Assembly: GCF_000003605.2 (NCBI RefSeq)
Contig: NW_003119425.1
Span: 916,276-941,821, forward strand
Length of the DNA: 25,546 nucleotides
Source: Saccoglossus kowalevskii
Taxonomy: Eukaryota; Hemichordata; Enteropneusta; Harrimaniidae
Direction of reading: 5' to 3'
In this document: one piece after another, positions 6,606 through 9,600 of the stretch
Numbering within the stretch: the first letter of the stretch is position 1
Layout: each line of letters starts with the position of its first letter
Program-made: the position numbers and the translations under genes
Notes under the pieces: model-generated
Told to the model about the DNA's origin: nothing
The model's database searches: none
The model's input: the letters and a program-made list of their open reading frames with translations, nothing else

Positions 6606-9600
6606 CTGCAAATATAAATTGCAATATTGATTAATTAACGTATAATTTACATACAAATTCATACTCATTAATTATTTACTGGATTTTAATTTAACTGATT
6701 TGAGAAATTTGCCTAAATAAAATCCACGTGCACATATCAAATTACAGTAACATTTATTGTTTGATTCGAAAATATATGAATTTGAAATTATTACAACAGT
6801 GAAATTAAATACAGTAAAATCAATTAATGGTTTTACAGTTCATGTAGTGATAGTTGATGAACGCCATTATGTCATCTCATTATTAAAGCATTCATCATGT
6901 TGTTCAATTCTGAAAAACAACTTTAAGGTAGGAGGTTGTAATCAAATCACATTTTATTTTTATCTCGCCATGTGTGAATAAAAGTGAGTTTTTGACGATT
7001 ACTTACATCATAACATCATAACTTACTGTAAAATGACTAATTTTCAATGGGTTTAAATTTCACTGATTTAGTACTGTTCAATACTTTATTTTCGCTTGGA
7101 ATTTATTTTCGTTATTTTCGCTGAAGGGATGATTCCGTGAAAATAAAATCCAGTGAATATACTTTTTTTTCCTATATTTCACATTAAACTCATCAAAAAT
7201 CAGTAAAAATAAATTCCATACAAAACAACCAAAAAGTCTTTTCAGCGAAAATTAATTCCAGCGAAAATAAAGTATTTCACAGTATTTCAGGCATATTCAG
7301 TGGGTTTTAAATTTACGGTTTTATCATTTAGACAATGTGTTCTATGCTAAACTAAATACATATTCATTGGGTTTTAATTTAGCACATTTCCCAGTCAGCG
7401 AAATAAGCAAAATTGAAACCAAGTAAATAAATAACCCATTTACAGTACATATTTTTTTTGTACATGTATCCTTCATTATATGATTCAACATAATAATATT
7501 TTTCTATAAAAGTCTGGGTTCTAAAGTTATTATCACTTTGGTCAAAAAGTGTTAGCAAGAAAACATGCAATCATTTTTCAACTACATATTTTATGTATAA
7601 ATTTTCATGCATAATAATAATTCACAATAGAATAATAATTCACTGGAAGTTAAGTTACTGGACAAAAGATTGATTCTGCTCACTTTTATTTGCTGTAGGA
7701 TTACATGGTTTGACACGAGCCATGATAAAATAAAATGCAAGGTTAAACAGATTTGTTTTCAAACTACCAGAATATGTGTACCATAACAAGTCTGCATAAA
7801 CATTCAAGCAATTAAGTTGAAGCCCTTGAAATTCTACTAAATCCTTAACCACAAACTAGTTTTTAAAAGAGAAGCACTTACAATGAAGCAATACAACAGA
7901 GAGTGACATTTAATAGATCTTTGGTTTAGTTTCTGGCGTTGGTGTATATGCATTCATATTTTGACAGTTTTACAAACAATTCAACAGATATTTGATCCCA
8001 CCAAAAAATCAGATTTTAAAACTATCATATGCAAATTGCAATGAAACATCAGAATCAATTTACATTCACTTAGGAAACCTTTTCATGATTTTATAACATA
8101 ATACAGTGCTTCTAAATGCATACTAGAATAATCCCAGTAAAATTATAGTCCATCACAACAACGCCATCTAGTGTATATCATGTATATCAGCACAGCGCCC
8201 TCAAGTGGTGGGATTAGCAATTTTCATGATAAAATGTATTTACATTTGAAAAAGTTCATTTATTATATTAACAGTATGCATTTAAATTCCAAAATCTCTA
8301 GATGGTTGCTGGAGAAAGAAATGTTCACATTTTTTTGTTTTCTGTTGAACTGTCAACGTAAATTTCTTTTCTACCAATTGTTTAGAAGCAAGTTGTAGAA
8401 TTTGTTCCTTGAAAATTAATGTTCATGTTCTACTTAACAATAGCAATGAGTGATTAATGAAAAACAGTTTTCCTAAATTAAATTTACATCAAATATTGAT
8501 TGATATCTGACCTTCGTTCTCCGTTGGAAAGCTTTTCCCATGGCAAGAGACTTCTCAAAAGTGTGACTCCGCTGGTCTACATCTCTGGCATACAGAATCT
8601 GTAGAAAATTAAACAATTTTAAAAATTATTAGCAAAAAAACTGTGTGAAAGTCAATCCTAGCACTGATCTGTCAATCTAGTATCAGCTGCATCAATTCAT
8701 CTTCCAATTCAGTCACTTACCTTGTTGTGAGAGTCAATCCTAGCACTGATCTGACCATCCAGTATTAGCTGCATCAATTCATCTTCCAACTCAGTCACTT
8801 ACCTTGTTGTGAGAGTCACTCTTGGCACTGATCTGACCATCTAGTATTAGCTGCATCAATTCATCTTCTAACTCAGTCACTTACCTTGTTGTGAGAGTCA
8901 CTCCTGGCACTGATCTGTCCATAGTATCAGCTGTATCAATTCATCTTCCAACTCAATCACTTACCTTGTTGTGATCGAGAGTCAATCCTAGCAAAGATCT
9001 GACCATCCAGTAATAGCTGTATCAATTCATCTTCCAACTCAGTCACTTACCTTGTTGTGAGAGTCAATCCTAGCACTAATCTGACTATCCAGTATTAGCT
9101 GTATCAATTCATCTTCCAACTCAGTCACTTACTTTGTTGTGAGAGTCAATCCTGGCACTGATCTGTCCATCTAGTATCAGCTGTAAGCTGTATCAATTCA
9201 TCTTCCAACTCAGTCACTTACCTTGTTGTGAGAGTCACTCCTGGCACTGATCTGTCCATCTAGTATCAGCTGTATCAATTCATCTTCCAACTCAGTCACA
9301 TACCTTGTTGTTAGTGTCAATCCTGGCACTGATCTGACCATCTAGTATCAGCTGCATCAATTCATCTTCCAACTCAGTCACTTACCTTGTTGTGAGAGTC
9401 AATCCTAGCACTGATCTGTCCATCTAGTATTAGCTGCATCAATTCATCTTCCAATTCGGTCACAGTGGTGTTGAATGCTGATGCCATTTTTCTCATATCT
9501 GCAGACATGTATGGACTGAAATACTGTATTGCCAATTGAAAGAGAAAGAAATTATAAGTCAGTGCAAATGATATAATCCACAGACAATTTTGACAGAACA

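Follow-up and report, generated by a model that had tools for sequence, protein, structure and literature searches.

Repeats built on the ends of exons have precedents: lancelet Adh was reportedly described by Canestro and colleagues in 2002, and in human IFI6 (6-16) a minisatellite, with a unit of about 12 bp, was reportedly found by Turri and colleagues in 1995 to provide multiple splice donors. In lancelets, tandem repeats that lie across exon-intron boundaries and are unstable in length, with copy numbers that differ between haplotypes or tissues, have been termed "mirages" (PMC3087553); their authors state, from Adh3 data and RT-PCR of a globin, that regular splicing is undisturbed (PMC3087553). 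Two reports name Adh3, the globins BflGb6 and BflGb9, TnC and PGBD5 as lancelet genes bearing mirages, and indicate that splice signals are kept by many copies, not by all, that the BflGb6 units are 81-100% alike and subject to concerted evolution, and that the BflGb9 repeats comprise the 3' boundary of an exon (PMC3087553, PMC3902484). The PGBD5 repeats adjoin 5' splice sites (PMC3902484). PMC4526556, PMC3618361 and PMC2915984 all cite a human minisatellite with several splice donors, and two downstream repeat units of IFI6 reportedly serve as donors (PMC4526556). Tandem duplication at exon-intron boundaries is also described as a means by which introns are gained or changed (PMC4974935, PMC2812944). 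A preliminary description of the locus reported here took minisatellites to arise normally from non-coding DNA, and thereby overlooked both the lancelet mirages (PMC3087553) and the human IFI6 minisatellite.

Here we characterize a tandem array at an exon-intron boundary of the gene for CSN1 (COP9 signalosome subunit 1). We consider it probable that this is a minisatellite of the mirage type, generated by duplication of the boundary and expansion to ten units, spliced out with its intron, and carrying decoy donors as neutral passengers. In the open-licence literature, searched with little focus on the gene name, we recognised no report of a CSN1 array of this type.

The CSN1 locus and its intronic array

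CSN1 lies on the minus strand of the window, the whole stretch of 25,546 nucleotides that was analysed. When a query joining three of its exons (part of 14124-13938, with 9523-9386 and 8598-8512) was matched to solved structures, it identified chain 4d10_A, COP9 signalosome complex subunit 1, with an E-value of 6.7e-72. The G+C content is 34.6%, and that of third codon positions 42% over 431 codons; both look low for a lancelet, which is no proof of another host. Features of the array and its surroundings, all on the minus strand, are as follows (a slash marks the splice junction).

9386..9523, minus strand: CSN1 exon, 138 nt, 46 residues in translation, ending ...IDSHNK; last 78 bp within unit 1
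9382..9463, minus strand: unit 1, the exon end followed by GTAA; authentic donor AAG/GTAAGT after 9386
9300..9381, minus strand: unit 2; weakened decoy donor AAG/GTATGT after 9304
9218..9299, minus strand: unit 3; decoy donor AAG/GTAAGT after 9222
9129..9217, minus strand: unit 4, 89 bp with a 7-nt tandem insertion; decoy donor AAA/GTAAGT after 9133
9047..9128, minus strand: unit 5; decoy donor AAG/GTAAGT after 9051
8961..9046, minus strand: unit 6, 86 bp with a 4-nt insertion; decoy donor AAG/GTAAGT after 8965
8881..8960, minus strand: unit 7, 80 bp with a 2-nt deletion; decoy donor AAG/GTAAGT after 8885
8799..8880, minus strand: unit 8; decoy donor AAG/GTAAGT after 8803
8717..8798, minus strand: unit 9; decoy donor AAG/GTAAGT after 8721; codes for the 26 residues of the exon end unchanged
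8644..8716, minus strand: unit 10, truncated to 73 bp, lacking a donor, with an in-frame stop
8599..8643, minus strand: non-repeat intron tail, 45 nt, with TGCTAAT (which we take to be a branch-point-like motif), a T-rich tract and a TACAG acceptor
8512..8598, minus strand: next CSN1 exon, 29 residues in translation

The array thus spans 9463-8644 in ten units, the first made up of the final 78 exon bases and GTAA. Tandem Repeats Finder delimited the same stretch (period 82, 9.9 copies, 89% matches, score 1233) and returned a second row for it with a period of 253, or about three units (score 1255). When split on the minus strand, six of the ten units measure exactly 82 bp, the remaining four being 89, 86, 80 and 73 bp. 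Ungapped comparison of the exon end with the other units gave E-values down to 2e-31 within the window, and the array is far beyond chance. These results bear out the seed and the unit count of the preliminary description, ten units of about 82 bp each formed by exon end plus GTAA, and its placement of one edge at 9463; the other edge lies at 8644 and not at 8650. Of the 787 bases of the intron (9385-8599), the array occupies 742 and the plain 3' tail the remaining 45, in which the acceptor has a jackknife score of 7.38.

The count of ten is that of one assembly and may still be wrong. That the array is itself an artefact, a single exon end echoed during assembly, is very unlikely: its length does exceed that of short reads, and elsewhere the window has a run of 818 N (12334-13151), an assembly gap or a masked stretch, but all ten units differ from one another and three carry private indels. 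No two units are identical, the closest pair being separated by one substitution and a 2-nt indel, and pairwise differences, indels excluded, average 8.0% (range 1.3 to 13.7%).

Other repeats occur in the window. The preceding CSN1 intron contains a second tandem array (10227-10846; 4.0 copies of about 157 bp, 93% matches), which a stretch in the open frame 13466-13723 resembles by eye, and a further CSN1 intron contains a 17-bp repeat (14190-14255; 3.9 copies, 100% matches). An exact 15-base match to the array unit on the opposite strand at 20313-20327 (E 0.001 within the window) is probably due to chance. Between 24863 and 25209 a 17-bp inverted match, with CCACAGTCCCTCAACAC at 24863 and its complement at 25193, resembles the ends of a small transposon; its 22-base extended form had no complement. 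Inverted repeats were absent from 8500-9600, and the whole window gave no Rfam match at gathering thresholds.

Serial splice donors and the predicted consequences of their use

The seed was earlier described as a coding exon end with a functional 5' splice site, which agrees with the composition of unit 1 and its predicted use as the authentic donor. GT is present at the donor position in eight of the nine intronic units, namely all of units 2-9, as had been claimed for eight extra exon-end/donor cassettes; unit 10 ends before that position. Among the nine donors of units 1-9, seven including the authentic one read AAG/GTAAGT, so that six of the eight decoys equal the authentic site over nine bases. 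The two weakened decoys (AAG/GTATGT in unit 2 and AAA/GTAAGT in unit 4) both fall within the first three, numbers too small for judgement. On both strands of the window AAGGTAAGT occurs at eight sites, seven within the array (the authentic donor among them) and one at another CSN1 donor.

All eight decoys lead to the same truncation, SHNKVSD-stop, reached 70 to 653 nt ahead of the resulting junction. Because every downstream donor gives this product, normal CSN1 requires the first. The productive mRNA would join the exon ending at 9386 to that beginning at 8598, with removal of the entire array. Exon definition would favour the first donor, which closes an exon of 138 nt; exons extended to the decoys would measure 220 to 803 nt. 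Use of any decoy would yield a truncated CSN1 form, an expected target of nonsense-mediated decay. Leaky or regulated use is possible, since most decoys cannot be told from the real donor over nine bases.

Preservation of donors amid other substitutions had been hinted at previously, and comparison of the ten units does not uphold it. Of 82 unit columns 21 vary, comprising 2/9 in the donor window and 19/73 elsewhere (Fisher P = 1, with little power). Chance alone leaves both GT columns unchanged in about 55% of random draws, and the longest stretch of columns without variation, 14, is ordinary (P 0.22 by shuffling). The donors look like the remainder of the unit. Selection on them is unsupported in this comparison, in which nine columns afford little power, and need not be invoked, since they are not specially preserved.

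It is unlikely, in our estimate, that the decoys regulate CSN1, whether by producing an unproductive transcript sensitive to nonsense-mediated decay or by offering extra U1 sites that assist exon definition. The identity of most decoys to a site that ranks fourth in strength among ten CSN1 donors (duplex -11.4 kcal/mol, the ten spanning -4.6 to -14.1), and the single stop shared by all eight, count for such a role; against it stand the lack of excess conservation in donor columns (again with little power), the weakening of two decoys, and indels in three units that look unconstrained.

Still another reading would make the units present or former cassette exons, in which an internal T(A/G)CAG acceptor and the unit donor bound an in-frame exon of 48 nt and 16 residues. 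This we regard as highly improbable. Of the eight intronic units with a donor, six keep the 48-nt frame open, variants shared among units are mostly silent, and lancelet PGBD5 repeats were called as an exon by a gene predictor, without RNA support (PMC3902484). The candidate acceptor GATACAG (units 3-7) scores 1.39, above three of the ten assigned acceptors, including that of the exon that seeded the array, on a profile built from those ten sites only; but 14.6% of 1147 AGs on the strand outscore it, TGCAG, which stands in its place in the remaining units, reaches just 0.15, and a pyrimidine tract is absent. Units 6 and 7 are, moreover, out of frame, and an extra copy would be expected to upset a conserved fold.

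Neutral carriage of the decoys within a mirage-type minisatellite remains our preferred account. A tandem duplication across the boundary would have created a second copy of exon end and donor, perhaps aided by a GT that the exon breakpoint and the donor have in common; unequal exchange or slippage would then have extended the array to its present ten units, which fill the intron. Frame-breaking indels in three of the nine intronic units (4, 6 and 7), the truncation of unit 10 and the unremarkable conservation of donors count in favour of passenger status for the decoys, which were most likely kept alike by exchange between units, a process in which the coding exon may take part. The account as a whole also draws on the mosaic variants, on the common truncation from all eight decoys, on the acceptor outside the repeats, and on the lancelet mirages, which share this anatomy and whose authors state that regular splicing is undisturbed (PMC3087553).

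Exchange among units and possible exchange with the coding exon

Seven coding columns carry their rarer base in at least two units, and all four combinations of bases occur in 11 of the 21 pairs of these columns. Such mosaic variants are the pattern expected from unequal exchange or conversion, and they favour homogenisation by unequal exchange, one of the options originally listed. Third codon positions account for six of the seven shared-variant columns (P 0.007 for an expectation of one third), and five of the seven changes are silent in the frame of the exon (P 0.005 to 0.034, depending on transition weight). Another 13 coding changes are each confined to a single array unit; three of them lie at third positions and three are silent, matching expectation without constraint; a change found only in the exon (column 6) and one in GTAA (column 82) belong to neither group. 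For the contrast between shared and private changes, Fisher's test gave P 0.017 in codon position and 0.062 in silence, and label shuffling gave 0.013 in position; the test was post hoc and used few sites, aligned by hand.

Unit 2, which adjoins the exon, is among the units most divergent from it (8 substitutions) and units 9 and 10 are the least (4 each), an arrangement that counts against simple growth at the exon; in unit 9 all four differences are silent. In mirages concerted evolution acts within the array and leaves out the edge units; here column 9, alone of the seven informative columns, separates units 1 and 10 from all others. The codon-position contrast and the silent differences of unit 9 suggest that the coding exon swapped sequence with the array, and may be a sign that the older variants once resided in the selected exon or derive from its alleles. 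The silent bias of the shared variants counts against plain neutral decay within an intron, which would not predict it, and participation of the exon is proposed to account for it. We put forward only tentatively, as something rather less likely than otherwise, the fuller proposition that exon and intronic copies exchange sequence, such that the array would be both a fossil record of silent variants of the exon and a feedstock able to rewrite it, in an animal that may not be a lancelet.

Relation to known boundary repeats

One new point is the contrast in codon position between shared variants (third position in 6/7) and those of single units (3/13), noted post hoc and from few sites. If the exon does join in exchange, coding sequence can be shaped by an intron repeat; if the host is not a lancelet, mirages would represent a wider route by which exons seed intron repeats. 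With seven of its nine serial donors identical, this conserved gene also provides a natural experiment in spliceosome choice among equals.

Intron gain by tandem duplication of AGGT, with GT supplied by one copy and AG by the next, does not describe this intron, whose assigned acceptor falls in the tail beyond the repeats (8643-8599). As in the accounts of boundary duplication (PMC4974935, PMC2812944), splice signals were apparently copied by duplication across an exon-intron boundary; the CSN1 case differs in that its acceptor lies outside the duplicated unit, so that no new intron need have arisen. The IFI6 minisatellite likewise places tandem repeats at the end of an exon, with donors in series, but two of its downstream units are reportedly used as donors (PMC4526556), whereas the CSN1 decoys are predicted sites, each truncating the protein. 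Against the lancelet mirages, CSN1 differs in not being among the genes named in the available portions of those reports (PMC3087553, PMC3902484), and in having ten units, where the two BflGb6 haplotypes have 6 and 3 duplicates and the PGBD5 assemblies 2 to 7 repeats. Its anatomy is otherwise that described for mirages, with the splice signal (GT) kept in 8/9 intronic units. Since lancelet mirages have already been described, the phenomenon is not new, and the CSN1 array looks like a further, unusually tidy, mirage-like case.
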